64,000 bases of DNA from Alloactinosynnema sp. L-07 (GTDB lineage Bacteria > Actinomycetota > Actinomycetes > Mycobacteriales > Pseudonocardiaceae). This document shows positions 15,844 to 44,867 of this stretch, piece by piece. Where the stretch lies: contig NZ_LN850107.1 of the NCBI RefSeq assembly GCF_900070365.1, positions 1-64,000 of the forward strand, given 5' to 3'. Both the position numbers and the translations under genes were made by a program. The notes beneath the pieces are model-generated. The model saw only the letters and a list, made by a program, of their open reading frames with translations, was not told the DNA's origin and did no database searches. Position 1 is the first letter of the stretch, and the number at the start of each line of letters is the position of its first letter.

Positions 15844-16244
15844 ACCTCCGCCGCGGGGCACTCACTTGGGTGCCCCGCGGGCTGGTCCTGTTCGCGCTGG
15901 CGGGCTGCTCGGCGTTCTGCTCGGACACCGCGATCTCGGTCGTGCCGCCGAATGTCGGATCGGGACCGGTGACCTTCGAGGCCAAGCTCACCTCCGGCGG
16001 CGATCCTGTCGCGGGTGCGCGGCTCGATTTCTACATCCTTGCCAAGGGCGCCAACGGTGAGGAAGGCCATCTGGCAGGCCAGGGCACGACCGGGGGTGAC
16101 GGGGTCGCGCGGGTGGTGGTCGACCGGTCGTCGTTGGACCGGCCGGGGGCGACGTTGTCCGCGGTCGAGGTCACGTTCGACAGTCTCGCTGAGATCAATG
16201 GGGAGCACTTTTGCGAGTCCAAGGCGCGTGTCTCGTTGCCGTGA
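15837..16244 (+). CDS. Small lipoprotein with an Ig-like domain
   Basis: 135-residue predicted lipoprotein. After WVPRGLVLFALAGC the lipobox LAGC gives Cys at about residue 24. The rest (VTFEAKLTSGGDPVAGARLDFY, then GDGVARVVVD) resembles bacterial Ig-like beta-sandwich domains that stabilise or space surface proteins. The start ATG overlaps the stop of the giant secreted protein (ATGCTGA), and the end overlaps the next lipoprotein gene by 34 bp, which indicates an operon. Function is unknown; a tethering or periplasmic partner role for the upstream protein is an inference. Confidence 0.7.
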   Translation: MLNLRRGALTWVPRGLVLFALAGCSAFCSDTAISVVPPNVGSGPVTFEAKLTSGGDPVAGARLDFYILAKGANGEEGHLAGQGTTGGDGVARVVVDRSSLDRPGATLSAVEVTFDSLAEINGEHFCESKARVSLP

Positions 16245-17122
16245 CTGTCTTGCTGGTGGGCGCGGTCGGGTGCGGCTCGCCTTCGGCTTCGCCGGACTGC
16301 GCCCGCATCAGTTCGTTGGCTGGTGCGGGGGGTGCGGTGCCTGCTGGGATGCCGGTGCCTTCTGGGGTGGTTGACGCTCGGGCGACGGTGATTCCGCCTC
16401 AGGCTGGTGTTGAGGTTCCGGCGGGGGAGTCCACTTTGGCCATGCCGGATCCGGATGTGCCTCGGACTGTGGTGGCGGGGAAGGTCAGTGGTGATTTGGG
16501 GGAGTTGAGGGCGGCGGTTGAGCGGGACATCGTTGGGCGGGGGTGGCGGGTGGTGTCTGGTTCGACTGGCAGTTTTGGTTATCGGGGGGCGGGGGTTTCT
16601 GGGGCGGTTGTGATCAAGGAGTGTGGGTATTTGGTGACGCAGGAGAGTTCGCCGCCGTTGCCTGTTGGTGGTGATCTTCCTGCGTGCGCGAAGCTCGCTT
16701 TTCCTGCTGGGATCTATGCGGCGGCCGTTGTTGCTCACGCGACTGACGTTGGGCCGACTCGTCGGTGTGAGTTCCGCTCCGGTGACAGCTTGTCTGGTCG
16801 GACCACTGTCACTGTTGCCCGGCCGCCTGTTGATGCGGAGGAATGGCGGCGCCGCTTGCAGAATCTGCGTCGGGCGGCTTCGGACTATTTGGTCCAGGGG
16901 TGTCCTGTGGATGTGGCTGCGGTGGCTTCGCTGGATATTGCGCCGTCTGCGTCGGCTTGTGTTGATACTGACTCGTTTGGTGGGCGGGCGGTTGTGTCGT
17001 TGGTGCGGGACAACGATTTTTGGTTGGGGGTGACGGTGGAGGCTAAGGCATCTGGAGCATCTGGACCGGCTGCTCGGGATGCAGCTGTTGCTGTGGTGAA
17101 GGGCGTGATGGCGGGGCTCTAG
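16211..17122 (+). CDS. Predicted lipoprotein, function unknown
   Basis: 303-residue exported protein of no family I recognise. A hydrophobic start (VAVTVLLVGAVGC) ends in a lipobox-like Cys at about residue 21. Several Cys pairs follow (ECGYLV, ACAKLAF, RRCEFRSG, QGCPVDV, SACVDT), and the layout resembles the sensor-like lipoproteins of actinomycetes that have two alpha/beta sandwich halves. The TTG start at 16211 overlaps the previous gene by 34 bp; a GTG at 16241 is the alternative. Codon use is odd: T and G end many codons, giving runs of GTT, TTG and GGG, unlike the GC3-rich neighbours. That may mean later acquisition or weak expression. The stop is followed within about 8 bp by one copy of the hairpin repeat. 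Confidence 0.65.
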   Translation: MRVQGACLVAVTVLLVGAVGCGSPSASPDCARISSLAGAGGAVPAGMPVPSGVVDARATVIPPQAGVEVPAGESTLAMPDPDVPRTVVAGKVSGDLGELRAAVERDIVGRGWRVVSGSTGSFGYRGAGVSGAVVIKECGYLVTQESSPPLPVGGDLPACAKLAFPAGIYAAAVVAHATDVGPTRRCEFRSGDSLSGRTTVTVARPPVDAEEWRRRLQNLRRAASDYLVQGCPVDVAAVASLDIAPSASACVDTDSFGGRAVVSLVRDNDFWLGVTVEAKASGASGPAARDAAVAVVKGVMAGL

Positions 17123-17129
17123 GCAACGG

Positions 17130-17362
17130 TCGGGCTTGGACTCCGCCGATGAGTGCACTCGTTCGGGCTTCGGAGGGCGGGGTCGCTCCCTCGTCAATCA
17201 GCGTCTTATCCGGAAACAGCGATGTCAATGGCGCCTGCGGCGTCGCTGCGCGATCAGCGAGCTGACCATTGACATCCCTGTTTCCGGATAAGGGATTGCC
17301 AGGACGAGGGTGCAGGGGGAAGTGCAGGGACCTGCGGTCCCTAAGGCAAAAGCCAAGCGCAA
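17130..17362 (+). repeat. Long hairpin repeat element, copy 1
   Basis: About 235 bp that recur in opposite orientation at 27725-27960. It carries a stem of 27-nt arms (17205-17231 and 17266-17292, one mismatch) around a 34-nt loop. Flanks of about 75 bp on either side are also shared (for example CTCGTTCGGGCTTCGGAGG and CAGGGACCTGCGGTCCC). The element starts about 8 bp after the stop of the upstream lipoprotein gene and ends just before the stop of the convergent LPxTG gene. It could end transcription from both sides, but the length and wide conservation point to an interspersed repeat family, not a simple terminator. Confidence 0.85.
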
Positions 17363-17369
17363 GGATGCG

Positions 17370-18104
17370 CTAGGTGCGGCGTCTGCGTGTTAGGGCGATG
17401 AGTACAGCGCCCAGTGCTACGGCCGTTGTGCCGATGATCATTAGCCAGTCTACGTCTGCGCCTGTGTTGGGCAGGCGTGACGTGTCGTGGCGGGGGTTTG
17501 GGGACGTCGTGGTTGGTGGTGGCGGGGTGGTGGTGGATGGGGGAGGCGTGGTGGTGATTGGGGCGATGGAGACGGCGATGTCGAAGCCGGGCTGAGCGGC
17601 GACGGCTGGCGGGGCTGCTCGGACGCCCATGAGGTGGAGGTTGGCGTTGGCCGCCTGGTCCGGGTTGGTCTCCATGTATGGGGCGGTGACGCCGTCTGGC
17701 CAGCGGGTGGGCATGACCTGGTAGGCGACGGTGCCCAGGTTGCCGAAGTCGAAGCGGCCGGAGGCGTCGGTGGTGGTGTTGTGGGCGTCGCTGACGACCT
17801 TGGTGTTCACCGCGTGGACGACCGTGTTGGCGAGTTCTTCGCCGGGGTCGGGTGCGTTGTCGCCGTCCGCGTCGACGAATAGGACGCCTGCGACGCGGGC
17901 CGACGTTTTGGTCACCGGGGCGGTGAAGGTGCGGACGTCGGGGCCGACGCGGACGGCGATCGTCAGGTCCCGGGACGGGTTGGTGTTCCAGCCGGTCACG
18001 GTGCTCGACAGGGATTCGATGGCGGCGGGCTGGGCGTGGGCCGGGGGGCCGCAGACGAGCAACGCGGTCGTCGCCGTGGCGAGCGCGGCGAGACGGAGGT
18101 ACAC
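17370..18104 (-). CDS. LPxTG-anchored surface protein with an SdrD/SpaA-like domain
   Basis: 244-residue exported protein destined for sortase attachment to the wall. Signal peptide (LAALATATTALLVCGPPAHAQ); a beta-domain of SdrD B/Cna B type (VLFVDADGDNAPDPGEELAN, TTDASGRFDFGNLG); a Thr/Pro-rich stalk (TTTPPPSTTTPPPPTTT); then the sorting signal LPNTG, a hydrophobic helix and RRRR. The GTG at 18104 is chosen because AAGGG lies 9 bp upstream and the signal peptide starts there; the longer frame to 18146 has no coding character. Ligand and role are unknown. Its 3' end faces repeat copy 1. Confidence 0.8.
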   Translation of the reverse strand: MYLRLAALATATTALLVCGPPAHAQPAAIESLSSTVTGWNTNPSRDLTIAVRVGPDVRTFTAPVTKTSARVAGVLFVDADGDNAPDPGEELANTVVHAVNTKVVSDAHNTTTDASGRFDFGNLGTVAYQVMPTRWPDGVTAPYMETNPDQAANANLHLMGVRAAPPAVAAQPGFDIAVSIAPITTTPPPSTTTPPPPTTTSPNPRHDTSRLPNTGADVDWLMIIGTTAVALGAVLIALTRRRRT

Positions 18105-18204
18105 GGAATCACCCTTCAGCTGCGGAAAGAGCCCGCAACGTAACACCTTCGGGTGACGTGCTGGTGAACACGAGGTGCTCCGTATACCGCACTAAACTGC
18201 GATC

Positions 18205-19044
18205 ATGTCTCGATTCATCACCGCCGCTGACGGGGTCCAGCTTTGGGCCGACGACCTCGGGGACCCGGCGCACCCGCCGCTGCTGCTGATCATGGGGGCG
18301 AACGCAGCGGGGTACACCTGGCCGGACGCGTTCGTCGGCCTGCTTGCCGAGACCCACCATATGATCCGTTACGACCACCGGGACACGGGCAAGTCGACGC
18401 ACGCGTTCGCCGAGAACCCCTACGCCATCACTGATCTGGCCGCCGACGCGGTCGCGGTGCTGGACGGGTTCGGGGTCGAGAAAGCGCATGTGGTGGGGAT
18501 GTCGATGGGCGGCATCGTCGGGCAGCTCCTGCTGCTGGACCACCCGGACCGGCTGCGCACCATGACGCTGCTCTGCACCGCCGCCCTGTTCGGCGCGGAC
18601 TCCCCGGAGTGGGCCGGTCCGTCGCCGGAGTTGTTGGCGCTCTGGCAGGAGCTCGGGCAGCCGCGTGACCGTGCGGCCGAGATCGACTGGCGGGTCCGGC
18701 ACTGGAAGATCCTCAACGGCGGCGTGATCCCCTTCGACGAGGCCGAGTTCCGCCGGATGGAGGAGCGGATCATCGAGCACGCGGGCACCCACACCGAATT
18801 CCCCGCGCACGCCCACGCCGACACGTCCGGTCTCGTTCGTGGCGACGAACTGACGACCGTGCGTATCCCCACCCTGGTCGTCCAAGGGCCCGAGGATCCG
18901 GTGAACCCGCCGCCGCAGGGGGAGCACATCGCCAAGCTCATCCCGGGCGCGGAACTGCTGGAGATCCCCGGCATGGGCCACGCGCTGCCCTCAGCGGTGC
19001 ACGGTCCGCTGGCGGAAGCCGTCCTCAAGCACGCGCGGCTCTGA
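18205..19044 (+). CDS. Alpha/beta-fold hydrolase, aclacinomycin methylesterase (RdmC)-like
   Basis: 279-residue alpha/beta hydrolase. The nucleophile elbow is GMSMGG with Ser at about residue 100; oxyanion-side residues lie in LIMGANAAGYTW; the catalytic Asp is probably in VVQGPEDPVNPP and His in IPGMGHALP near the C-terminus. The long cap and these motifs resemble RdmC-type methylesterases and similar carboxylesterases of actinomycetes. No signal peptide, so it acts in the cytoplasm. The 3' end overlaps the HxlR regulator by 20 bp on the other strand. The substrate cannot be inferred; no polyketide cluster is present. Confidence 0.8.
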   Translation: MSRFITAADGVQLWADDLGDPAHPPLLLIMGANAAGYTWPDAFVGLLAETHHMIRYDHRDTGKSTHAFAENPYAITDLAADAVAVLDGFGVEKAHVVGMSMGGIVGQLLLLDHPDRLRTMTLLCTAALFGADSPEWAGPSPELLALWQELGQPRDRAAEIDWRVRHWKILNGGVIPFDEAEFRRMEERIIEHAGTHTEFPAHAHADTSGLVRGDELTTVRIPTLVVQGPEDPVNPPPQGEHIAKLIPGAELLEIPGMGHALPSAVHGPLAEAVLKHARL

Positions 19045-19684
19045 CAAGCGGCGCGACGGGGCTCAGCTGGAGCCAGTGCGGCAGCCCCCGCACCACCCAC
19101 CGGGCCCCGGTCAGGGTCAGCCGCCCCGCCTTGGCCGCGTCCATGAGGTCGACCTCGCCCTCCCAGACGCGGTACAGCGTGGCGATGTCCGAGGCCAGGA
19201 CAGCGTCGACGTCGAAGCCGGGGTCGGTGTAGCAGACCGAGGCGTCGTCGGGTTCGAGTACGAGCCAGAAGACGCGCTTGCGGTCGGGGACCTGGATCTG
19301 GATGACCGCCCGGTTCGCGATCTCGCTGGTGTCGACCCGGCCGTGCAGCCACCACATCAGCAGCTCGGGGTCCATCTCCTCGGGCTGCGGGTCACCGAAG
19401 GCGTGCCGGGCGCCCCAGTCGGCCAGGCCGAACACCAGCGGCCGCAGGTCCTCGCCGGAGTGGGTCAGCTCGTAGCCGGTGTCGGTCCGCACGACGATGC
19501 CCGCGTTCTCCAGCTGTCTGAACCGGCGGGCGAGCAGGGCCCTGGACAGGCCGGGCAGACCCCTGGCGATCTCGTTGAAGCGGGTCTTGCCGATCAGCAG
19601 TTCCCGGACGATGAGCAGCGTCCAGCGGTCGCCGAGGACCTCGACGGCTCGGACGATCGGGCAGTACTGGGCGTAGGGACGCAC
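19025..19684 (-). CDS. HxlR-family transcriptional regulator with a C-terminal SCP2-like domain
   Basis: 219-residue regulator. The N-terminal 100 residues are a winged helix of HxlR type: CPIVRAVEVLGDRWTLLIVR, LIGKTRFNEIARGLPGLSRA, then LARRFRQLENAGIVVRTDTGYELT. The C-terminal half (LVLEPDDASVCYTDPGFDVD) resembles an SCP2-like ligand pocket found in many actinobacterial relatives. It diverges from the acyl-CoA dehydrogenase/P450 pair, so control of that pair is the natural guess. An inverted repeat sits 14-31 bp before its GTG start. Confidence 0.85.
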   Translation of the reverse strand: MRPYAQYCPIVRAVEVLGDRWTLLIVRELLIGKTRFNEIARGLPGLSRALLARRFRQLENAGIVVRTDTGYELTHSGEDLRPLVFGLADWGARHAFGDPQPEEMDPELLMWWLHGRVDTSEIANRAVIQIQVPDRKRVFWLVLEPDDASVCYTDPGFDVDAVLASDIATLYRVWEGEVDLMDAAKAGRLTLTGARWVVRGLPHWLQLSPVAPLVRAARA

Positions 19685-19697
19685 ACCAGGTGAGTCG

Positions 19698-19715
19698 GGT
19701 CGGGACGGTCCGACC
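19698..19715. promoter_or_regulatory. Inverted repeat, candidate HxlR operator
   Basis: GGTCGG and CCGACC arms are separated by 6 bp, within the 118-bp gap between the divergent HxlR gene and the acyl-CoA dehydrogenase gene. The position suits autoregulation and control of the divergent pair. Winged-helix HxlR dimers bind such symmetric sites. Confidence 0.4.
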
Positions 19716-19802
19716 GTTACGGGTGCGGTTCAGTTTCTGCACTACCTGGCCGCTCGGACCCTTCCTACCGTCAGTGCCACTACCCAGCGAAAGGCACTGA
19801 AC

Positions 19803-20966
19803 ATGACGCTCATCGATTCACCGCCCGACACCGACACCCGCTTCGTCGGACTCGCCGCCGAGATCGGCGCGGTCGCCGCGAAGCACGCCGCCGAGCACGA
19901 TCGGGACGCCACGTTCGTCAGTGAGGCGTACGCGCTCATGCGGGACCGGGGATATCTCGCGCTGGCCGTACCCGTGGAGCTGGGCGGACTCGGCGCGAGC
20001 TTCAAGCAGGTCTGCCACGCGCAGGCCGAGCTCGCCCGGCATGACGGCGCGACGGCGCTGGCCTGCGCGATGCACCAGTACCTGACCCTGATGCAGGTGT
20101 ATCGGCGGCGCAAGGGTGCCCCGGACGCGGAAGCCGTGCTGCGCCGGATCGCCGACGACGGGATCGTCATCGCGACCAGCGGAGGTTCCGACTGGCTGTG
20201 GCCGACGACCACGGCGGTCGAGGTCGGCGGCGGGTATCTCATCAACGGCCGCAAGGCGTTCTGCAGCCAGTCGCCCGGAGCCACTGTCGTGGCGACGTGC
20301 GCGGTGCTCGGTGAGGGCGCGGGCGCCGAGGTGATCCACTTCAGCGTGCCGTTCGCCGCCGAGGGCGTCCGGATCGAGGAGACCTGGGACACGCTCGGCA
20401 TGCGCGGCACGGCCAGCCACGACGTCGTCATCGAGGATGTCGTCATCCCGGCCGACAAGATCACCGGCCGCCGCCCGTACGGCGAGTTCGGCGGGCCGCT
20501 CGCGGCCGCCGCGATGCACTTCGCGCCGGTCGTGGGCGCCACCTACTACGGGATCGGGGCGGGCGCGCGGGCTATCGCCGTCGCCGCCGCGACCGCCGGG
20601 ACCCGCGGACCGACAGCGCTGGCGAACCTGCCCAGGGTGCAGCGGGCGGTCGGGCTGATGGACACCAGGCTCCGGGTCGCGTGGTGGGCGCTCATGGGCG
20701 CGGTCGACGAGCTCGGCGAGGACTACACCTGCGACCCGACGACGCTGAACACCGTGATGATCGCCAAGCGGCAGGCCGTGACGGCGGCGATCGAGGTGGT
20801 GGACCTGGCGATGGACGTCGTCGGCGGGCGCGCGTTCTACCGCCGGTTCCCGCTGGAGCGGGCTTACCGCGACGTTCGGGCGGGCGCGTTCCACCCGTTC
20901 ACGCCTGAGTTGACTCTTACTTACGCGGGTAAGCTTGCGTTGGGCGACAGCGGCGTCACGGAATGA
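19803..20966 (+). CDS. Acyl-CoA dehydrogenase
   Basis: 387-residue flavoenzyme of the acyl-CoA dehydrogenase family, which introduces a double bond alpha-beta to a thioester. The domain order is normal: helical N-terminal part (YALMRDRGYLALAVPVELGG), beta middle domain with FAD-contact residues (TSGGSDW, INGRKAFCSQSPGATVVAT, DTLGMRGTASHDV) and a helical C-terminal domain (VVDLAMDVVGGRAFYRRFPLER). It is a short version close to those acting in secondary metabolism or on unusual acyl groups. The P450 gene follows 63 bp later on the same strand. The ATG has a purine-rich CGAAAGG upstream. Confidence 0.85.
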   Translation: MTLIDSPPDTDTRFVGLAAEIGAVAAKHAAEHDRDATFVSEAYALMRDRGYLALAVPVELGGLGASFKQVCHAQAELARHDGATALACAMHQYLTLMQVYRRRKGAPDAEAVLRRIADDGIVIATSGGSDWLWPTTTAVEVGGGYLINGRKAFCSQSPGATVVATCAVLGEGAGAEVIHFSVPFAAEGVRIEETWDTLGMRGTASHDVVIEDVVIPADKITGRRPYGEFGGPLAAAAMHFAPVVGATYYGIGAGARAIAVAAATAGTRGPTALANLPRVQRAVGLMDTRLRVAWWALMGAVDELGEDYTCDPTTLNTVMIAKRQAVTAAIEVVDLAMDVVGGRAFYRRFPLERAYRDVRAGAFHPFTPELTLTYAGKLALGDSGVTE

Positions 20967-21029
20967 CGTCACACCGGCCGGGGGCTCGGCGATGTAGCGG
21001 TCAAACCACACATCGCGGAGGCTGCTTCC

Positions 21030-22193
21030 ATGATCACGATCGCCGAAAGCGCGTTCATGGCCCGGTCGGACTCACCCATGACGCTGGGGCGCACGCTGGC
21101 GGCGCTGGGTCGGGAGAACCCGGTCGTGTTCGACGAGCGGATGGGCGCCCCGGTGGTGCTGCGGCACGCCGATGTCTCCACGGGGCTGCGCGACACCACG
21201 ACGTTCAGCACCAAGTTCTACGGCATGGGCCCCATGGCCGCGTCGATGATCGCCCACGACGGCCCCGAGCACGTGCGGCAGCGGCGCATCCACAACCGGT
21301 TCTTCAGCCCCGGCGCGAGCAAGCGGTACGAGGAGCGCATCCGCCCGATCGCGGCCGCGGTCTTCGGCTCGCTGGCCGGGCCGCGGGTCGAGCTGATCGA
21401 GGCGGCGGTCGCGCGCTACCCGATGCAGGTGTTCCTCGACCTGCTGGGCATCCCCGACGAGGTCGGTGACCAAGGGCTTCAGTGGGTGCGCACGATCGTG
21501 AGCTGGCTGGGCTCGCCGATGGACGAGGCGATGGTCGCGCCCGGTCTCCAGGCGTATCAGGAACTGAGCGACTACACCGCGACCCTGGTGGAGCAGGAGC
21601 GGGCGAAGCCGAGTGACAACCTGCTCGGCGAGATCATCCGGGCCCACGAGGGCGAGTTCTCGCTGGAGTCCTGTGTGGCCGCGGTCGTCAGCCTGCTGCT
21701 GGGCGGCTTCGAGACGACGATCCAGATGATGACCGCGACCGTCGGCTCGCTGCTGCTCAACCCCGACGCGCTGGCCCAGGTCCGCGCCGACCGGTCGCTC
21801 ATCGACGGCGCGATCGACGAGGCGTTCCGCTGGGCCAACCCGTCGGCCGGGCTCTACCGGCTGGTCCTGCGCGACACCGAGATCGCGGGCACCCCCATGG
21901 CAGCGGGCAGCATGACCTACTTCTGTATCGCCGCCGCCCACTACGACGCCGAGGCGTTCCCCTCCCCGGAGACCTTCGACGTCACCCGCGCCCCCAGTCA
22001 TCTCGGCTTCGGACTCGGACCGCACTACTGTGTCGGCGCCCCGCTGGCCAAGATCGAGGTCCGGGCCGCTGTCGACGCGCTGCTCGACGCCTACCCGAAC
22101 CTGCGTTCGGACCCGGACCGCCCGATGTCCTTCCAGTACGGCGCCAGGGGTTTCGTGCAGCACGGCACCGACGCCGTCCCGGTCCTGCTCTGA
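21030..22193 (+). CDS. Cytochrome P450
   Basis: 387-residue bacterial class I P450 monooxygenase. The I-helix has LLLGGFETT (GGxET variant of the oxygen-binding motif), the K-helix has EAFRW (ExxR), and the haem loop is FGLGPHYCVG with the Cys ligand at about residue 334. No membrane anchor. It needs a ferredoxin and reductase, none of which lies nearby. Probably co-transcribed with the acyl-CoA dehydrogenase upstream (63-bp gap). An ACAD plus P450 pair next to an HxlR regulator suggests oxidation of a small carboxylic or acyl substrate, which is inference. A strong hairpin follows the stop. Confidence 0.9.
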   Translation: MITIAESAFMARSDSPMTLGRTLAALGRENPVVFDERMGAPVVLRHADVSTGLRDTTTFSTKFYGMGPMAASMIAHDGPEHVRQRRIHNRFFSPGASKRYEERIRPIAAAVFGSLAGPRVELIEAAVARYPMQVFLDLLGIPDEVGDQGLQWVRTIVSWLGSPMDEAMVAPGLQAYQELSDYTATLVEQERAKPSDNLLGEIIRAHEGEFSLESCVAAVVSLLLGGFETTIQMMTATVGSLLLNPDALAQVRADRSLIDGAIDEAFRWANPSAGLYRLVLRDTEIAGTPMAAGSMTYFCIAAAHYDAEAFPSPETFDVTRAPSHLGFGLGPHYCVGAPLAKIEVRAAVDALLDAYPNLRSDPDRPMSFQYGARGFVQHGTDAVPVLL

Positions 22194-22199
22194 GGTGGT

Positions 22200-22238
22200 G
22201 GTCTCCTCGGCACCGTGACGGGCGATGCCGAGGAGACC
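22200..22238. terminator. Bidirectional hairpin terminator between P450 and the 86-residue peptide gene
   Basis: Perfect 13-bp arms GGTCTCCTCGGCA and TGCCGAGGAGACC with a 13-nt loop sit between two converging stops. There is no T-tract, as is common in actinomycetes. Confidence 0.65.
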
Positions 22239-22241
22239 GGT

Positions 22242-22502
22242 TCACATCGCGACGATGATGATGATCACGGTGCCGTCTTCGAGCACGATGACCAGCACGC
22301 CGACGCCGCCCTTGGCCTTGGCCGCCGACCGGTCCAACTGGACGGACACGTCGGCGTCGGCGGCCAGGTCGAGGCCCGCGGCGTTGAGCGTGTCGATCGG
22401 CGCCTCGACCAGCTTGCCGACCTCGCCCGCCGCCAGCGTGCCCGACCATAGGTCAGAGGACTTGAAACCGGAGGTGGTCACGTCGATCTTGGTGAGCTTC
22501 AT
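22242..22502 (-). CDS. Small 86-residue protein, unknown; precursor-peptide-like layout
   Basis: I recognise no family. The N-terminal 60 residues are acidic and helix/beta mixed (MKLTKIDVTTSGFKSSDLW, then TLAAGEVGKLVEAPIDTL). A basic KAKGG then precedes a very hydrophobic C-terminus of about 20 residues (VGVLVIVLEDGTVIIIIVAM). A Gly-Gly before a distinct tail recalls leader/core borders of ribosomal peptides, but the tail has no Cys and only one Thr, and no modifying enzyme or peptidase-transporter lies nearby. The tail could instead form a beta-hairpin that aggregates or inserts in membrane. AAGGGA stands 6 bp before the ATG, and it is divergent from the NB-ARC regulator, so it is very likely expressed. 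Confidence 0.6.
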   Translation of the reverse strand: MKLTKIDVTTSGFKSSDLWSGTLAAGEVGKLVEAPIDTLNAAGLDLAADADVSVQLDRSAAKAKGGVGVLVIVLEDGTVIIIIVAM

Positions 22503-22661
22503 GGTGCTTCCCTTCGTGGATGCCCTGTCTCCCAGGTGGATCCAGTCTCAGCGCGGTCGGTAGCCGGTTGACGGAATCGAACAGAACCGGCCGCCCCAAA
22601 GGGCAAACCGGTTTACAGCCCGGATCCCGGGGAGGACCCTCGACGCCGGAGGGGAGGACGG

Positions 22662-25208
22662 ATGGGTGAGCTGCCCAGACCGAGCGTGTCCGAAGGCCCG
22701 GTCCGCGTGTTCTTCGACGACCTGCACGACCTGCACCATCGCGCGGGCTGGCCGAGCCTGCGGGACATGGCCAAGGAGGTCGGGTGCAGCCACACCACGA
22801 TCTCCGCGGCGTTCTCCGGCTCAGCCGTGCCGCGCTGGGGCCTGGTCGAACTGATCGTGGAGGCGCTGGGCGGTGACGTCGGCGCCTTCCACGCGCGGTG
22901 GCTCGCGGCGAGCAGCAAAGCCGAGCCCGCACCCGAGCCGACCGCGGGGTCCGCGACCTCCGCGCCCCGCCAGCTCCCCGCCGACGTCGCCGCGTTCACC
23001 GGCCGGGCCGCCCAACTCGCCGCGCTCGACCGGGCCGCCGCGCCGCCGCCCGCGGTCACTATCGCCGCGGTGACTGGGACCGGTGGGGTGGGCAAGACCG
23101 CCCTCGCCGTGCACTGGGCGCACCGCGCGGCGGCGCGGTTCCCGGACGGACAGTGCTATCTGAACCTCCGCGGCTACTCGCCCGACCAGCCCGTCCCACC
23201 CGCCGCCGCGCTGGAGTCCCTGCTGGTCGCGCTCGGGGTGGCGCGGTCGGCCGTGCCACACGCACTCGACGAGCGGGCCGCGCTCTACCGCACGACGGTG
23301 GCGGGCAAACACCTCCTGATCGTGCTGGACAACGCCCGTTCGGTCGAGCAGGTGCGCGACCTGCTGCCCGGCGCCCCGACCTGCCAGGTCCTGGTGACCA
23401 GCCGCGACACCCTGGCCGCGCTGGTCGCGCGGCACGGTGCCGTCCGGGTCGACTTGGACGTGCTGACCGTCGCGGAGTCCGTCGACCTGTTGCGCAGGCT
23501 CCTCGGCGACCGGGTCGACGCCGAACCCGGCGAAGCCGAGGCGCTGGCCGCGCGCTGCGCCCGGCTGCCGCTGGCGATCCGGATCGCCGCCGAACTCGCC
23601 GCCGCCCGGCCGAAGGCGCCGCTGTCGTGGCTGACCGCCGAACTGGCCGACGAGGCGGGCAGGCTCGACCTACTCGCCGCGGGCGACGACGACGAGACCG
23701 CCGTGCGGGCGGTCTTCTCCTGGTCCTGCACGCACTTGTGGCCCGCCGACCTGGACTCGTTCCAACTACTTGGGTTGCACCCTGGCCAGCAGGTCCAGGT
23801 CAGTGTCGCCGCCGCGCTCTTCGGCGTGGCCGAGACCGCCGCCCGCCGGTCGCTGGCGGCGCTGGCCCAAGCGCACCTGGTGGACGAGATCCGGCCCGGC
23901 TGGTTCGCGATGCACGACCTGTTGCGCGCGTACGCCGCCGAGCAGGCCGCGGGCCGGGCCGACCGGGCCCAGGCGCGGGAGCGGTTGTTCGATCACTATC
24001 TGTCCCGCGCGCGAGCCGTCGATCCACGCGATACCTGGCTCAGCGACGAGCACGAGAACCTCGTCGCCGTGGCCGCCGTCGCGCCGCCCAGGTTCGCGCT
24101 CGACCTGTCGGAATGCCTGGCCAAGCCCTTCGACCTGCGTGCGCACTACCGTGACGGCCTCGCGCTGCACGAGTCGGCGGTGCGGGCCGCGCGCGACCTG
24201 GGCGACCGCGCGGGGGAGGCGGCGGCGCTGAACCGGCTGGGCACCGCGCTGCTGCGGGTCGGCGCCTATCCGGCCGCCACCGAACGCCACCAGATCGCCC
24301 TCGGCATCAGCCGGGAAACCGGTGACCTGGCCGAGGAAGCCGGGGCGCGGCACGGTCTCGGGGTGGTGTCATGGCGGCTGGGCCGCTACGCCGACGCACG
24401 CGAACACCTGACGGCCGCGCTGGCGATCCGGCGCGACATCGGCGACGTGCCCGGCGAGGGCACCGAGCTCTACGGACTCGGCACCGTCCACCGCCAGCTC
24501 GGCGACTACGAGACCGCGCTCGACTACCAGCGCGGCGCGCTGCTGCTCTATCGCGCGTGCGGCGACCAGCTCGGGGAGAGCCGCGTCCTCAACAATCTGG
24601 GCCCGACGCTGGAGCGGATGGGTCGCTTCGCCGACGCTCTCGACCACTGCGAGCGGTCGCTGGCACTGAACCGGGTGATCGGCAACCGGATGGGTGAAGC
24701 GGTGGCCACCACCAACCTCGCGTCGGCGGAGTGCCGCCTCGGCAGGCTCGATGACGCGGTGAAGCACCACGAACAGGCGTTGGCGCTCTACCTGGAGATC
24801 GGCTACCGGACCGGCGAGGCTGACGGCCGCTATGGCCTCGGCGCCGCCCTGCGCGCGCTGGGCAGGCTCGCCGACGCCGAGCACCAGCTGCGGTGGGCCA
24901 TCGAGATCGCCCACGACGTCGGCGAGATCGACGTCGAGATCGGCGCGTCGGTCGAACTCGGGGAGACCTTGCGCCTGCGCGGCGCGCGGGAGGCCAAAGA
25001 CGTGCTCCGCCAAGCGCACGACCTGGCGGTGCGGACCGGCGACGACTACGACCACGGCCGCGCGCTGGCGGCGCTGGCGGAACTGGATTTCGCCGCCGGA
25101 CACGCGTCCGCCGCGCGCGAGCGGTGGCTCGCGGCGGCGGACTTGTTCGAGCGGCTGGGTGTGCCGGAGGGCGGCGCGGTCCGGCAGCGGCTCACTGGAG
25201 CTTGGTGA
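22662..25208 (+). CDS. AfsR-like regulator: HTH, NB-ARC ATPase and TPR repeats
   Basis: 848-residue STAND-type regulator. Residues 15-85 hold an XRE-like helix-turn-helix (RDMAKEVGCSHTTISAAFSG). The NB-ARC module follows: Walker A GTGGVGKTALAVHWA at about residue 142, Walker B HLLIVLDNA at about 220, sensor VLVTSRD, and the GLPLA-like motif CARLPLAIRIAAELAA. A winged helix (DSFQLLGLHPGQQ) leads to a C-terminal array of TPRs, about 480-840, with GxxxxEAxxxxxLG-like periodicity. ATP binding and ligand or partner binding to the TPRs would release DNA-binding activity. Unlike AfsR itself there is no N-terminal SARP/BTAD domain. The nearest target candidate is the divergent 86-residue peptide gene. 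The 3' end overlaps the convergent protease gene. Confidence 0.85.
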   Translation: MGELPRPSVSEGPVRVFFDDLHDLHHRAGWPSLRDMAKEVGCSHTTISAAFSGSAVPRWGLVELIVEALGGDVGAFHARWLAASSKAEPAPEPTAGSATSAPRQLPADVAAFTGRAAQLAALDRAAAPPPAVTIAAVTGTGGVGKTALAVHWAHRAAARFPDGQCYLNLRGYSPDQPVPPAAALESLLVALGVARSAVPHALDERAALYRTTVAGKHLLIVLDNARSVEQVRDLLPGAPTCQVLVTSRDTLAALVARHGAVRVDLDVLTVAESVDLLRRLLGDRVDAEPGEAEALAARCARLPLAIRIAAELAAARPKAPLSWLTAELADEAGRLDLLAAGDDDETAVRAVFSWSCTHLWPADLDSFQLLGLHPGQQVQVSVAAALFGVAETAARRSLAALAQAHLVDEIRPGWFAMHDLLRAYAAEQAAGRADRAQARERLFDHYLSRARAVDPRDTWLSDEHENLVAVAAVAPPRFALDLSECLAKPFDLRAHYRDGLALHESAVRAARDLGDRAGEAAALNRLGTALLRVGAYPAATERHQIALGISRETGDLAEEAGARHGLGVVSWRLGRYADAREHLTAALAIRRDIGDVPGEGTELYGLGTVHRQLGDYETALDYQRGALLLYRACGDQLGESRVLNNLGPTLERMGRFADALDHCERSLALNRVIGNRMGEAVATTNLASAECRLGRLDDAVKHHEQALALYLEIGYRTGEADGRYGLGAALRALGRLADAEHQLRWAIEIAHDVGEIDVEIGASVELGETLRLRGAREAKDVLRQAHDLAVRTGDDYDHGRALAALAELDFAAGHASAARERWLAAADLFERLGVPEGGAVRQRLTGAW

Positions 25209-27582
25209 GGGACGTCCCGTTCGACACCGCCAGCGCGAAGTTCTGCCGCGCCACCGGCCCCACCGGGACACCAGGGGCGGGCATGATGACCGAGAACCCG
25301 AACACGGCGATCCGGTACACCCCGGGCAGCGCGTCGGGGACGGTCACCTGCTGCACGTTGTTGACCGGGTCCGGGAACCGGCTGACATCGCCGTCGAGCG
25401 CTTTCCCCTCTGGGTCGACCACCCGCAGGTAGAGCTGGTTGACCAGGCCACCGCCCGAACCCGACGGCGCGTCCGTCCACACGAGAGTGACGCGCAGCGG
25501 CTCGCCCGCCGTCATTCCGTCGATCCGCAGGACGCGGAACTCGCCGGTCTGCACGGCGTCGTCAGGCGAGTCGGCGAAGCAGACCGGCTTGCCCGACACC
25601 GTGGTCAGGCAGCGCGCCACATCGACCCGGCCGAACCCGGCGGCCGTCGCGGCGGCGCCGGAGACCTCGCCGGGGAACTGCCCCGGCAGCGGCGTGGCGC
25701 CGTGGATCAGCATCGCCTTGAGCAGGGCGGCCGACGGGTGGTGGCGCCGCTGCTCCACGAGGTGCTGGCGGACCACCGCGACCGCGCCCGCGACCAGCGG
25801 CGTGGACATGCTCGTCCCGCCGCTCCAGCAGTAGAACGGCCGCAGCGGATGGCCCGCGGGCAGCCTGCCCCACAGCGGATCGATCGACTGCGGGATGACC
25901 GTGGACAGCGTCGAGAGCACGTTCGTTCCCGGCGCCACCACGTCCGGCTTGATCCGCTGGTCGTCGGCGGGCCCGCGCGAGGAGAACGCGGCCAGCCCGT
26001 CAGGGTTGTCGGAGAGGTGACCGGCCGGGCCGAACGCGGGGTAGCGCAGGTTCCCGTCCTTGTCCTTCAGCTCGTCCCACCGCTTGTTCCGCCCGGGGGG
26101 CGGCTGGGAGCCCGCGGGCCGCACGTTCTCCGACGCGCCGACCGTGAGGCAGTTCTTCGCCGTGCCCGGCGCGGAAATGGTGTCCTGGTCGACGACGCCG
26201 TCGCCGTTGGCGTCGACGCCCGCGTTGCCCGCCGAGAACAGGATCAGCATGTCCTGGTGGTCCCAGATGAACTTGTCGACCACCTGCGCGGTGGTGGTGT
26301 ACGCGCCGTCCGCGGGCGAGCCCCACGAGTTGGTGTGGATGCGCGCGCCCGCCTGGTAGGCCTGCTCGAACAGCGGCTGCAAGTTGAGGGGAAGCCCGTA
26401 GAGCCCGACCGCGTTGGGCGGCCACTCGTCCTCGAACGGCCTGATCCCCTCAGCGGCAAGCTGCTCAGCGGTCTTCCACGCCACCTTTTGCCCAATGGAC
26501 TGGAAGAACACCCTGGCCTTCGGCGCGACCCCGGACGGCACGGTGTCGCCGCCGACGGTCCTGGCCGCGCGGCCGTTGCCCAGCACGGAACCCGCCACGT
26601 GGGTGCCATGGCCGGAGTCGGGGTCGCCCGGACCGTCGTCGTGCTCGGGTTCGTCGGTGGTGAACCTGCGGTAGTCGGCCTTGGTCGGCCAACTGGTGAT
26701 GCCCGCGACCCGGCCGCGCAGGTCGGGGTGCATGGTCTCGGGCACGCCGGTGTCGATGCCGGAGTCGGCGATGGCCACGATCTGGCCGGACCCGGTGAGC
26801 ACGGTGGTGTCGAAGGTGTTGTCGCTCGGCACCCGCATGACTTTCCTGGCCTGGTCGTTGTGCGCGACCACGCGGGTGTGGGGCTCGATCGACCGCACGC
26901 CGGGGAGTTCGGCCAGTTCGGTGATCGCGGCGGCCGGGGCCGAGGCCACGACGACCCCTGCCTCGGCGCTGAGTACGGAGCCACCTGCGGCCTCGACCAC
27001 GGCGACGACCGGTGCGAGGTCCTCGGCGGGGAAGACCGCGACCTCGACCTGGGCCGCGCGGTAGCCGCCGGGCTCGGCGAGTGCGGCGTGGTCCAGCCTG
27101 CGGCCGCCGCCCCGCAGCGCGGGCGCGACGCACATCGCCGCCCGGTACGGCGTCACGCCCGCCGCCCACGGCTGCGCCCGAAGCCGGTGGGCGGCGTCGG
27201 GCAGCGCGCTGACCAGCAGGGTGAGGTCTTCGAGGCTGTCCAGGACGGTCACCCCGTGCTGGGTCAGCCAGGTGAGCCAGGCCGCCGCGGCGGGACCGGC
27301 CAGCCGGACCAGGTAGTACCCGGTCCGGCCCGGATCGGTCGGCGTCGGCGCGCGCTCCTCGGCGGCCTGCGCGTCGGCGAAGTCGAACTCGTTGCCGGTC
27401 GCCCGCACGGCCTGCGCGGGCAGCTCGGCGGTCTGCAGGCCGCGCTGTTCCAGGTCCGCGACCTGCGCGTCGGTGGCGTCGACCAGGACGGCGTGGGGGT
27501 AGCGGGCGAGCACGGTGGTTTCGGTTTCGCGCAGGGTGTCGAGGTCCTCGGCGGACCTGGGGATGACCAGCAGCGTTGTCAT
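25192..27582 (-). CDS. Subtilisin-like serine protease (S8), no signal peptide
   Basis: 796-residue protein. The catalytic triad is Asp in IVAIADSGIDTG, His in SGHGTHVAGS and Ser in GGTSMSTPLVAG. An N-terminal part of about 250 residues contains two segments that resemble I9-type inhibitory prodomains (YYLVRLAGPAAAAWLTWL and VEVAVFPAEDLAPVVAVV). After the catalytic domain, a beta-sandwich (RVTLVWTDAPS) like that of KP-43-type alkaline proteases ends the chain. There is no signal peptide or transmembrane segment, so the protein either stays in the cell or leaves by another route. It overlaps the NB-ARC gene by 17 bp. Long insertions between Asp and His, and between His and Ser, carry acidic loops that may bind calcium. 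Confidence 0.85.
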   Translation of the reverse strand: MTTLLVIPRSAEDLDTLRETETTVLARYPHAVLVDATDAQVADLEQRGLQTAELPAQAVRATGNEFDFADAQAAEERAPTPTDPGRTGYYLVRLAGPAAAAWLTWLTQHGVTVLDSLEDLTLLVSALPDAAHRLRAQPWAAGVTPYRAAMCVAPALRGGGRRLDHAALAEPGGYRAAQVEVAVFPAEDLAPVVAVVEAAGGSVLSAEAGVVVASAPAAAITELAELPGVRSIEPHTRVVAHNDQARKVMRVPSDNTFDTTVLTGSGQIVAIADSGIDTGVPETMHPDLRGRVAGITSWPTKADYRRFTTDEPEHDDGPGDPDSGHGTHVAGSVLGNGRAARTVGGDTVPSGVAPKARVFFQSIGQKVAWKTAEQLAAEGIRPFEDEWPPNAVGLYGLPLNLQPLFEQAYQAGARIHTNSWGSPADGAYTTTAQVVDKFIWDHQDMLILFSAGNAGVDANGDGVVDQDTISAPGTAKNCLTVGASENVRPAGSQPPPGRNKRWDELKDKDGNLRYPAFGPAGHLSDNPDGLAAFSSRGPADDQRIKPDVVAPGTNVLSTLSTVIPQSIDPLWGRLPAGHPLRPFYCWSGGTSMSTPLVAGAVAVVRQHLVEQRRHHPSAALLKAMLIHGATPLPGQFPGEVSGAAATAAGFGRVDVARCLTTVSGKPVCFADSPDDAVQTGEFRVLRIDGMTAGEPLRVTLVWTDAPSGSGGGLVNQLYLRVVDPEGKALDGDVSRFPDPVNNVQQVTVPDALPGVYRIAVFGFSVIMPAPGVPVGPVARQNFALAVSNGTSLTKLQ

Positions 27583-27724
27583 GGCGTCTCCTGACGGTGG
27601 TTTGGTCCATCGTCAGGCGGTTAGCGGGTGGGTTGACGAAGCTGGACGGAACTGGACAGCCCGCCCTCGGCCTGGCCGACTTCCGAACCCGACTTGCCAC
27701 TTGGCCCAGGCTGACCGCCAGAGG

Positions 27725-27960
27725 CCCTTGCTCTGCTTTTGCTTGTGGGACCGCAGGTCCCTGCACTTCCCCCTGCACCCTCGTCCTGGCAATCCCTTGT
27801 CCGGAAACAGGCCTGTCAATGGTCAGCTTCGCTGATCGCGCAGCGACGCCGCAGGCGCCATTGACAGGCCTGTTTCCGGACAAGACGCTGATTGTCGAGG
27901 GAGCGACCCGTCCTCCGAAGCCCGAACGAGCCCACTCAATCGCGGCGCACCAAGCCCGAG
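27725..27960 (-). repeat. Long hairpin repeat element, copy 2 (inverted)
   Basis: The inverted counterpart of the element at 17130-17362, about 90 percent identical by eye. The stem arms are perfect over 27 nt (27796-27822 and 27858-27884). Where copy 1 has TTATCC paired with GGATAA, this copy has TTGTCC paired with GGACAA, and GATGTC/GACATC is replaced by CCTGTC/GACAGG, so changes are paired. Seen on the minus strand it starts about 12 bp after the stop of the nucleotide cyclase gene, the same relation as copy 1 to its upstream gene. Confidence 0.85.
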
Positions 27961-27971
27961 CGCGACCGGAC

Positions 27972-28742
27972 TCACCGGACAGCACCATCATCGCCGTAAC
28001 GCGGCACGACCGCGAACACCTCAAGCCCACGCGGAGCACCCTTCGCGCGGAATCGCCTGCGCCGCACCGTGTACCGGTCGGTGTCCACATTGGCCAGCGC
28101 GGGCCCGGACACCAGAACCTCACCCCCACCAGCAGCCCCAGCCACCCTGGCAGCGATATTGACATCCACCCCGAGATAGTCCGCACCGACCCGACGCGGC
28201 TGCCCCGCATGCAAACCCGTACGCAACTGCGGCCGATACCCCTCAAGGCTGATCGCACTAACCGCAGTACAAGCCTCATACGCAGCAGAAATCGCCCGCC
28301 CGGTGTCAGCGAACACAGCCATAACACCGTCACCCAGCGACTTCACCACCGTCCCGCCGTGACGAGCGATGACAGTCTCACTAGCCTGCCCAACCTCACC
28401 AAGCAGCCGCAGCACCTGATCATCGCCCGCCCGCAACGCCCAGGTAGAGAACCCGACAAGATCAGTGAACAGAATGGTGACCTCGGCAGTAGCAGGCGCA
28501 GACCCACGAACCGCCTGCCACACCTGCACCGCAGTCAGCCCAAGCTCACGCAACGCACTAGGCCGGTCGACACCCGCCTGCTCAATCAGCCGAGCCACGC
28601 GCGCGGACGGCTGGTTGCCCACCGGCGGCACATACCGCCCAGGCGCCAGCCGACGAACCGTTCGAGCAGTCCGGACGACACCCTCATTACCGTCGGACTC
28701 ACGCAGCAGCCGCCGCACCCTCGCCCAACCCGTGTCATCCAC
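27972..28742 (-). CDS. Class III adenylate/guanylate cyclase domain protein
   Basis: 256-residue soluble protein; the last 170 residues form a class III cyclase homology domain. Metal-binding Asp residues occur in ILFTDLVGFS and SLGDGVMAVF. The purine-selecting pair looks adenylate-type: Lys in VVKSLGDG and Asp in GADYLGVDVN. The transition-state Asn and Arg are in DVNIAARVAG. All catalytic residues are present, so cAMP formation is likely. The N-terminal 80 residues are basic (RVRRLLRESD, RTVRRLAPGRY) and not a known sensor domain. The GTG at 28742, 8 bp after AAGG, begins 11 bp beyond the upstream gene's stop; a TTG at 28748 is the alternative. Repeat copy 2 follows the stop. Confidence 0.82.
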   Translation of the reverse strand: MDDTGWARVRRLLRESDGNEGVVRTARTVRRLAPGRYVPPVGNQPSARVARLIEQAGVDRPSALRELGLTAVQVWQAVRGSAPATAEVTILFTDLVGFSTWALRAGDDQVLRLLGEVGQASETVIARHGGTVVKSLGDGVMAVFADTGRAISAAYEACTAVSAISLEGYRPQLRTGLHAGQPRRVGADYLGVDVNIAARVAGAAGGGEVLVSGPALANVDTDRYTVRRRRFRAKGAPRGLEVFAVVPRYGDDGAVR

Positions 28743-28752
28743 ACCCAAAACC

Positions 28753-29166
28753 TTACTGCCGCACAGCTTTCCGGGACTGTGATCTGAGCACGACCGCCAC
28801 GATGACCCCATAGGCGACGTGGTCGGCCACCTGCGGCCCCAACGGCAGCGCACGGACCCGCGGAAACCGCCGACCAACCAGGCCCAGGTCCACCGCCGCG
28901 ATAGCGAGCCCCGCCAGCGCGCCCACGGTCTTCCTAGGCGGCAGCCGGGCGATCACCTGGGCCCAGCCCAGCGACAGCCCGATGTGGGTGACGGCCGCCG
29001 ACACCAGCAATCTGCCGCGCCGAGTCTCGCGCGGGAGCAGAATCGACCCCGCGGCGAGCGTGGCTTCGAGCGGGTCGGCTCTGGTCAGCAGGGCCCACGC
29101 GGTCGACGGCACGCCGCTGAGACAGGCCGCGACGGCCCCTGCGACCACGGCGTCACTCGACTTCAC
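28753..29166 (-). CDS. Small integral membrane protein, unknown
   Basis: 137-residue protein with three or four hydrophobic stretches (AGAVAACLSGVPSTAWALL, LLVSAAVTHIGLSLGWAQVI, VGALAGLAIAAVDLGLVG and VAYGVIVAVVL). No catalytic motif is seen. Many actinomycetes have similar small membrane proteins of unknown role. The stop lies 10 bp before the cyclase start, so the two are probably co-transcribed and the cyclase may be linked to a membrane event. The GTG start is the only suitable one. Confidence 0.6.
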   Translation of the reverse strand: MKSSDAVVAGAVAACLSGVPSTAWALLTRADPLEATLAAGSILLPRETRRGRLLVSAAVTHIGLSLGWAQVIARLPPRKTVGALAGLAIAAVDLGLVGRRFPRVRALPLGPQVADHVAYGVIVAVVLRSQSRKAVRQ

Positions 29167-44318: not shown

Positions 44319-44336
44319 TGCACCGGGGGGCGACCC

Positions 44337-44625
44337 CCACGGTGCGTACTCTCACGAACCAGCCGTGCCCGTTGTCCGTAGCTGGTGGTGGGCGGGGTGT
44401 GTAACCAATAGCCGAGTCGCCCACGGTGCGTACTCTCGCGATCCAGCCGTGCCCCGCATCCGTAGCCGGTGGCGGGCGTGGTTTGTAACCAATAGCCGAG
44501 TCCCCCACGGTGCGTACTCTCCCGAACCAGCCATGCCCGGCGTCCGTAGCTGAGTCGCCCCCGGGCGTATTCTCGCGATCCAGCCGTGCCCGGCGTCCAT
44601 AGCTGGTGGCGGGCGGGGCCACCAA
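44337..44625. repeat. Tandem 84-bp minisatellite after tRNA-His
   Basis: Units begin at about 44337, 44421 and 44505 (exact 84-bp steps), each starting CCACGGTGCGTACTCTC and including CCAGCCGTGCCC, GTCCGTAGC and GTAACCAATAGCCGAGTC. The third unit is cut short by a deletion of about 36 bp and runs into a fourth, divergent unit (about 44553-44625). As 84 is a multiple of 3, both strands stay open and could suggest 28-residue repeat peptides, but no start site or family supports coding. It may be polymorphic in copy number. From 44626 to 44867 I see only a probable promoter region of the next gene. Confidence 0.85.
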
Positions 44626-44867
44626 GCACTACTGCCAGTGGCATCAGGATCTGTCGATCGCGTGGATGAAGTGCCGTGTTGGCCTTGAGTCGGAATCGTC
44701 CACTCAGGATCCCGGCAGGCGCTGGTCCGGCCTGCGTGTTCCCAAGGCGTGACCGATTGTCGCTGATGGTAACTGGTGACGTTCCCAGTTGGCCATTCAC
44801 ATTGATGGTTGGCACTTAGTTTCCTTCTATCCGCCATGCGAGGGCACGGCGGTGGAAGGAGATCAAC

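Follow-up and report, generated by a model that had tools for sequence, protein, structure and literature searches.

A family of hairpin elements in Alloactinosynnema and its relatives with the probable character of single-stranded-DNA promoters

Why would a bacterial chromosome keep, at two places ~10.4 kb apart, a palindrome whose letters may change as long as both arms change together; is it DNA or RNA that is being preserved; and which of the two strands is it? These questions are raised by positions 1 to 64,000 of contig NZ_LN850107.1 of Alloactinosynnema sp. L-07 (assembly GCF_900070365.1; this whole stretch of 64,000 nucleotides is called the window hereafter), which holds two inverted, ~90% identical copies of a hairpin element, W1 and W2, exactly where a preliminary description made from the letters alone had placed them. 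Taken as the arms of an inverted repeat, the two show 92% complementarity over 99 nt and 94% over 81 nt, the arms being 10.4–10.6 kb apart, and the compensated stem differences reported for them (TTATCC/GGATAA against TTGTCC/GGACAA, and GATGTC/GACATC against CCTGTC/GACAGG) are indeed present. Each copy, as will be argued, is probably a single-stranded-DNA promoter, i.e., an RNA-polymerase-type single-strand initiation site of the Frpo or single-strand origin (sso) type.

17130..17364, copy W1 (plus strand in the preliminary description; fold and promoter strand minus)
27726..27959, copy W2 (minus strand in the preliminary description; fold and promoter strand plus)

Far from being confined to these two places and absent from relatives, which had been named at first as the refuting outcome, the element belongs to a dispersed multi-copy family, as had been suspected. 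A BLAST search with W1 gave 62 rows in the 7.4-Mb genome, and a covariance model, R1, derived from 44 elements, each taken on the strand complementary to that on which W1 had been read, gave 79 rows that resolve into 39 primary places (one of them split by an insertion sequence), the remainder being two weak rows, which were left out, and 38 mirror-strand shadows of the same palindromes. Matches to R1 were seen in 82 of the 150 genomes, and 34 of the 46 genera, searched within the same family, in 64 of 249 genomes of the order (a set that again includes family members) and in 10 of 296 genomes of the phylum (own genome counted; several of these matches cover the core only); filters were stricter in these last three surveys and only a few candidates were scored for each genome, which makes the copy numbers they yield lower bounds. 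The carriers include Amycolatopsis, Prauserella, Pseudonocardia, Actinophytocola, Streptomyces, Isoptericola and Rothia. Stem types differ between species, and copies at different places may be up to 97% identical. In Streptomyces zaomyceticus, elements stand at the very ends of several stretches (L158, L161, L184), perhaps at assembly breaks caused by near-identical repeats. Titles and abstracts of the open-access literature on actinobacterial palindromic repeats and on single-stranded-DNA promoters or origins held, among the matches listed, no description of such a hairpin family.

Read 5' to 3' on the fold strand, a family member consists of a pyrimidine-rich conserved 5' flank, an outer stem (P1), ~11 nt, the 26-nt 5' arm of the main stem (P2), three small hairpins (P5, P4, P3), the 3' arm of P2, which opens with CC(C/A)TTGAC, and then ~10 nt, opening with (G/A)AC(G/A)(A/C)T, before the 3' arm of P1. 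In the window these parts are placed as follows.

17303..17310, minus, W1 outer stem P1, 5' arm (read from the sequence; pairs counted across the family)
17292..17302, minus, W1 internal loop, 5' side, the proposed template strand of a pre-opened bubble
17266..17291, minus, W1 main stem P2, 5' arm (from covariation and the DNA fold)
17254..17265, minus, W1 small hairpin P5 (covaries across the family)
17243..17253, minus, W1 small hairpin P4, fold-strand loop GCA (nearly invariant in the family)
17232..17242, minus, W1 small hairpin P3, fold-strand loop GCA
17206..17231, minus, W1 main stem P2, 3' arm, which holds the -35-like box and the 17-nt spacer
17223..17228, minus, W1 -35-like box TTGACA
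17200..17205, minus, W1 -10-like box GACGCT, 17 nt past the -35-like box and inside the internal loop
17188..17195, minus, W1 outer stem P1, 3' arm (pairs counted across the family)
27797..27822, plus, W2 main stem P2, 5' arm
27823..27857, plus, W2 small hairpins P5, P4 and P3
27858..27883, plus, W2 main stem P2, 3' arm
27861..27866, plus, W2 -35-like box TTGACA
27884..27889, plus, W2 -10-like box GACGCT

That this fold is under selection, one of two explanations offered initially for the compensated changes, was borne out by covariation: the score of alignment A2 was 0.440 as opposed to 0.147 in shuffles and 0.06–0.09 when the structure was slid along the sequences. Both sides change in 19 of the 26 pairs of P2, in which 96.9% of the cells are paired, meaning that its sequence is nearly free to change between copies and species while the pairing is kept; P5 covaries as well (three of five pairs), and P1 is paired in 74% of cells overall, its inner three pairs being weakly supported. 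Folded as DNA, the W1 stem (which has a single C.C mismatch) gave z scores of -8.6 on the minus and -7.2 on the plus strand, equalled by none of 200 shuffles; its 17292..17302 segment is open in the centroid and takes up three additional pairs in the minimum-energy structure. Folding as RNA on the strand of the preliminary description was matched by 0 of 200 shuffles for W1 and 1 of 200 for W2.

A palindrome reads much the same on both strands, and it is its imperfect pairs that tell the strands apart, a G.T on one strand being an A.C on the other. In alignments made by MAFFT without any structure, P2 holds 41 wobble (G.U) cells on the fold strand (44 sequences) as opposed to 4 on the mirror strand (48 sequences), and among 94 primary elements from 42 genomes, once the eight outer pairs are left out, 157 G.U cells stand against 7 A.C cells, or 126 against 7 when each genome and pair type is counted once (with 86 other mismatches besides), although the 94-element alignment was fitted, and is thus biased, to R1, and related copies are not independent. 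Selection thus bears on a single strand, the minus strand in W1 and the plus strand in W2, and this is the opposite of the strand initially read: the imperfect pairs there are G.U and not A.C.

On this same strand lie two promoter-like boxes. In an alignment for which no motif had been sought, the letters of TTGA at the beginning of the 3' arm either never vary or are conserved in 90% or more of the sequences. Downstream of the stem, at one vote per genome, conservation is highest at two positions, A (86%) and T (80%), which are the second and sixth of a hexamer at a spacer of 17 and which we take to correspond to -11A and -7T in a -10 box of the sigma-70 type. The hexamer itself sits in the unpaired internal loop. 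A regular expression, which partly fixes TTGA, located the 3' arm in 104 of 114 elements (10 misses), and in the 84 of the 94 primary hits with a recognised arm, xAxxxT stood at spacer 17 in 79 on the fold strand (30.2 of 33 genomes by weight) versus 2 of 83 on the mirror strand, which by symmetry offers the same TTGAC and has xAxxxT at spacer 16 in 16 of 83. Within the own genome, 37 of the 39 copies keep the hexamer, the two misses being a copy with one base lost in the box and the split copy.

The loops lean towards DNA as the folded material. In most cases P4 and P3 carry a GNA triloop or a GNNA tetraloop with a C-G closing pair: among the 94 elements, P4 has GCA in 58, GAA in 9, GTA in 6, GGA in 5, GTCA in 5 and others in 2 (9 not recognised), and P3 has GCA in 29, GAA in 21, GTA in 12, GGA in 3 and others in 8 (21 not recognised). 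Among RNA loops of the GNNA class GNRA is preferred, whereas in DNA cGNAg and cGNNAg form loops of unusual stability, and of the 30 four-nucleotide P4 loops found on genome contigs in the canonical setting, 28 are GNNA (GTCA 8, GCAA 7, GATA 4, GCCA 4, GGCA 2, and GTGA, GGAA and GCGA once each; the exceptions are CTAG and GAGC), with GNYA outnumbering GNRA by 18 to 10, or by 15 to 5 in a hand count taking each organism and loop once. By eye, mini-hairpins of the form GGGACC-TNC-GGTCCC, with GNA loops on the fold strand, are seen at 17325–17345 of the window and, in many copies, within the 3' tail, where they often recur behind the element.

The family also occurs on plasmids. W1 itself had no BLAST match among plasmids and phages, whereas, with the E-value relaxed to 0.01, a core of more canonical sequence taken from another genus matched 22 plasmid records, all from actinobacterial genera, and a Rothia query matched 20 (the lists overlap); phages gave no match even with the more canonical core. 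Among the carriers are plasmids that bear rep, mobF, relaxase or Tra genes, but the majority of the copies counted lie on chromosomes, and some of those on these plasmids fail the box test. Contexts and boxes were examined on 24 plasmid records and one Rothia contig. The element stands 30 nt after a Rep_trans-like open reading frame (ORF) on a 1,579-bp Curtobacterium plasmid (L186), upstream of rep on the 8-kb pPA43082 of Pseudonocardia autotrophica (R1 match of 81.8 bits), upstream of mobF on a Streptomyces plasmid, near mobC/relaxase in Gulosibacter, beside ArdC and a Tra gene on Kocuria pCE7 and, in Prauserella (L198), between SSB and primase-polymerase genes, 141 nt upstream of the former. 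In Rothia it is found on plasmids of 2.5 and 3.5 kb and on a 4.0-kb high-coverage contig, two of the three bearing Replicase-family genes (initiator family PF03090). The hexamer xAxxxT was found at a spacing of 15–17 on the fold strand of 19 of the 25 copies (two of which are identical) as opposed to 3 of 24 at 15–18 on the mirror strand and a fraction of ~0.10 expected after shuffling the downstream letters; good examples are TTGAAG-16-TAGAAT and TTGACG-16-TAGATT in Rothia and TTGACG-16-TACAAT in Kocuria. The element lies on the same strand as rep on L186 and L192, and its orientation fits on L191.

Taken as a single-stranded-DNA promoter, the element would work in the following manner. Once single-stranded, the fold strand of either copy (minus for W1, plus for W2) would take up its structure, whereupon the 26 pairs of P2 would offer the -35 box TTGACA and the 17-nt spacer as a duplex, capped at the upstream end by the small GNA/GNNA-loop hairpins; the -10 box xAxxxT would be presented in an internal loop of 10–12 nt resembling an already opened transcription bubble, closed by the short downstream duplex P1. 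Host RNA polymerase with the housekeeping sigma factor might then bind and transcribe that strand's own 5' flank, the RNA for W1 presumably starting near 17300 and running right, and this RNA could serve as a primer for complementary-strand synthesis or, on plasmids, as an early transcript.

Precedents for such a design exist. According to PMC11541004, the secondary structure of Frpo mimics a duplex and lets RNA polymerase act on single-stranded DNA, and Frpo/ssi promoters lie in leading regions near SSB and anti-defence genes. As in Frpo of the F plasmid and the ssi promoters, a folded strand carries -35 and -10 boxes here, those of Frpo being, according to the same source, used by the host RNA polymerase, as is predicted for the present element. 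The setting is partly shared too, one copy lying beside ArdC in Kocuria and another by an SSB gene in Prauserella; the former passes the box test, and the latter fails it. The likeness seen is one of anatomy, and the GNA/GNNA hairpin caps, the actinobacterial hosts and the dozens of chromosomal copies set the present family apart. The sso, as portrayed in PMC4595007, is a stem-loop revealed when single-stranded, orientation-specific and often RNA-polymerase-dependent, and rolling-circle plasmids of Streptomyces need one, as stated in PMC3583192. The element resembles the sso of rolling-circle plasmids and of ICEBs1, as outlined there, in being a stem-loop with a predicted single-stranded-DNA function and in having copies on small plasmids; on the side of the differences, the copy on the plasmid with the Rep_trans-like ORF fails the box test, the two PF03090 replicons may not use rolling circle, and pIJ101 is without an R1 match. 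A further parallel lies in the loops. Streptomyces telomere and parvovirus hairpins have GCGNAGC loops, and the compact GNA-type loops of the element are similar, unlike its internal chromosomal and plasmid sites.

Several observations weigh against reading the element as a single-stranded-DNA promoter. The outer stem P1 shows no strand asymmetry (17 G.U versus 13 A.C, counted as distinct per genome), P4 and P3 are nearly invariant in A2 and have no covariation support there, and W1 folded alone is predicted to pair differently in the P4/P3 region. GACGCT agrees with TATAAT at two positions only, and a standard consensus promoter scan found nothing at W1, which is arguably what would be expected if the bubble must be pre-opened. 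The chromosomal copies are found where genes end, with no obvious gene under their control. On the plasmids, the hexamer is missing in 6 of the 25 copies (L186, L193, L197, L198, L200, L207), including those of the 1,579-bp Curtobacterium plasmid and the SSB-adjacent L198, the latter being without TTGA as well; the template-side gene reads away from the element on 14 of the 22 plasmids with an annotated neighbour, a trend only (tallied by hand from an incomplete PLSDB gene table, with L187, L199 and L209 left out), and the orientation of L196, beside a relaxase, looks wrong. Finally, pIJ101 (8,830 nt) gave no R1 match at E ≤ 0.5.

How the chromosomal copies sit among the genes bears on several of the alternatives. 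W1 and W2 do lie just after stop codons (8 and 12 nt, respectively), as first described, which does not extend to the family as a rule: what its members share is a position at gene 3' ends, about half of it convergent. A crude gene caller placed 33 of 107 elements singly between convergent genes, 30 singly in tandem (19 sense and 11 antisense, a weak test of orientation) and 4 singly between divergent genes, with 16 unclear and 24 in pairs. Proteins encoded around W1 and W2 include an LPXTG protein, a subtilase and a guanylate cyclase, the two genes next to the copies being:

16211..17122, plus, ORF ending 8 nt before W1, no Pfam match
27972..28877, minus, ORF with a guanylate cyclase domain, its stop 12 nt from W2

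Ten neighbour proteins at six own-genome loci belong to ordinary families (e.g., MFS, molybdopterin oxidoreductase, abhydrolase), none of these being a transposase or plasmid family, and the own-genome rows, compared by eye only, showed no link to replication direction. Three gene ends hold the element in two or three species, the copies of the own genome and of the comparison genomes G001 and G014 being each of their own type while those of G010 and G014 are alike, which may reflect either concerted change or repeated insertion. Site comparisons with G001, G010 and G014 yielded no clean empty site, G010 and G014 showing losses or larger gaps instead: one pair of places (L145/L146) has the element at both in G014 and in a form reduced by deletion in G010, and at another (L120/L153) 356 nt in G014 face 10 nt in G010. 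The central hairpin has been lost by deletions with differing end points, as unstable palindromes do, in four own-genome copies (L035, L036, L037, L041) and in L145 of G010. In the split own-genome copy (L031 2990–4360, ~7.324 Mb), the insertion sequence lies inside the loop and has a 442-aa ORF of DDE type, IS481-like by eye. Head-to-head pairs form part of longer shared units of ~350–700 nt in G014 (L109, L117, L154), with ~42-nt tandem repeats downstream in the first two.

Among the alternatives, the one that survives best, although it is unlikely, is a structured RNA (a 3' untranslated region element or a small RNA) transcribed from the fold strand, with TTGAC and xAxxxT as protein-binding or RNA motifs. 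One-strand G.U wobbles recurring at the same pairs are, after all, classical evidence for RNA, and the covariation is deep; yet Rfam gave the element no match above the gathering threshold in the window or at ten other loci (only tRNA and RNase P genes elsewhere, and for W1 at a lax threshold a single chance-level hit), GNYA tetraloops outnumber GNRA in P4, the boxes keep promoter spacing on one strand only, and copies exist on plasmids of 1.6–3.5 kb. Its narrower form, the RNA of the preceding gene's 3' untranslated region that had been suggested at the outset, finds no support in the selected strand (minus for W1, plus for W2) or in the tandem copies, which have no clear orientation relative to neighbouring genes.

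Mobile DNA of the REP/REPIN or MITE kind, in which a single-stranded hairpin would be recognised by a transposase and the promoter-like features would be incidental, seems more doubtful still. REP and REPIN sequences are short, dispersed, intergenic palindromes, often in inverted pairs, and the dozens of dispersed, species-specific copies, the head-to-head pairs, the shared units of G014 and the near-identity of some distant copies would all suit such an origin; the present element, however, is longer, three-armed and furnished with promoter-like boxes, the site comparisons turned up neither a clean empty site nor a target duplication for an element, and the one-strand 17-nt spacing between the boxes is left unexplained. 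A REP/REPIN system driven by a RAYT was considered and rejected, as the search of the own genome yielded a single Y1-type transposase (Y1_Tnp), which is part of an IS200/IS605 unit together with TnpB and has no copy of the hairpin within the surrounding 3.4 kb. Mobility and a single-stranded-DNA promoter function can, in any case, both be true of the same element.

Arm-to-arm template switching during replication, which would keep palindromes perfect without functional selection and corresponds to the second explanation initially given for the compensated changes, is very improbable: multi-base blocks do differ together in both arms, and palindromes are also lost by deletion, but pure copying would yield neither one-strand G.U wobbles at the same pairs in many genera, nor conserved loops, nor a -10-like hexamer fixed in position outside the palindrome on one strand. 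A bidirectional transcription terminator between converging genes, to which the 33 of 67 single copies with callable neighbours found between converging genes (versus 4 between diverging ones, by the same crude caller) might point, is scarcely credible, given that the W1 scan found no U-tract at the hairpin, that at least two copies (L030 and L057) directly follow an ordinary terminator-like hairpin by eye, and that the strand-specific constraints do not fit.

Some further repeats and genes were noted along the way. An intergenic tandem array of ~84-nt units lies at 44336–44640 of the window, the orthologous place of G010 (L142, ~1940–2790) having a longer array of 92-nt units with a remnant of the hairpin element and that of G014 (L155) a full hairpin; two 300-nt direct repeats, 87% identical and 357 nt apart from start to start, lie at 57601–58257 of the window. 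A retroelement was considered as well; the only reverse transcriptase match in the own genome is a 477-aa ORF at 2121869–2122522 (L185, 2.12 Mb), of group-II-intron type by eye.

What, then, would tens of single-stranded-DNA promoters be doing on a chromosome? It is tentatively conceivable that, silent in duplex DNA, they fire only when their locus becomes single-stranded (at stalled forks, in DNA exchange or during plasmid-like replication), thereby making up a chromosome-wide system of RNA-polymerase-primed restart or of single-strand sensing, derived from or shared with actinobacterial plasmids, in which the stem would drift freely because only the duplex, the spacing and the boxes matter. 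If the single-stranded-DNA promoter reading is true, the family would be a large and structurally explicit one in Actinobacteria, found by covariation and not by similarity to Frpo; its covariance model could be used for seeking such signals on plasmids and chromosomes alike, it would explain how complementary strands are primed, or genes expressed early, on plasmids of Actinobacteria, the strand asymmetry of wobble pairs would prove able to reveal, without an experiment, which strand of a DNA palindrome acts, and Alloactinosynnema sp. L-07 would turn out to have, quite unexpectedly, a chromosome with ~40 single-stranded-DNA promoters.

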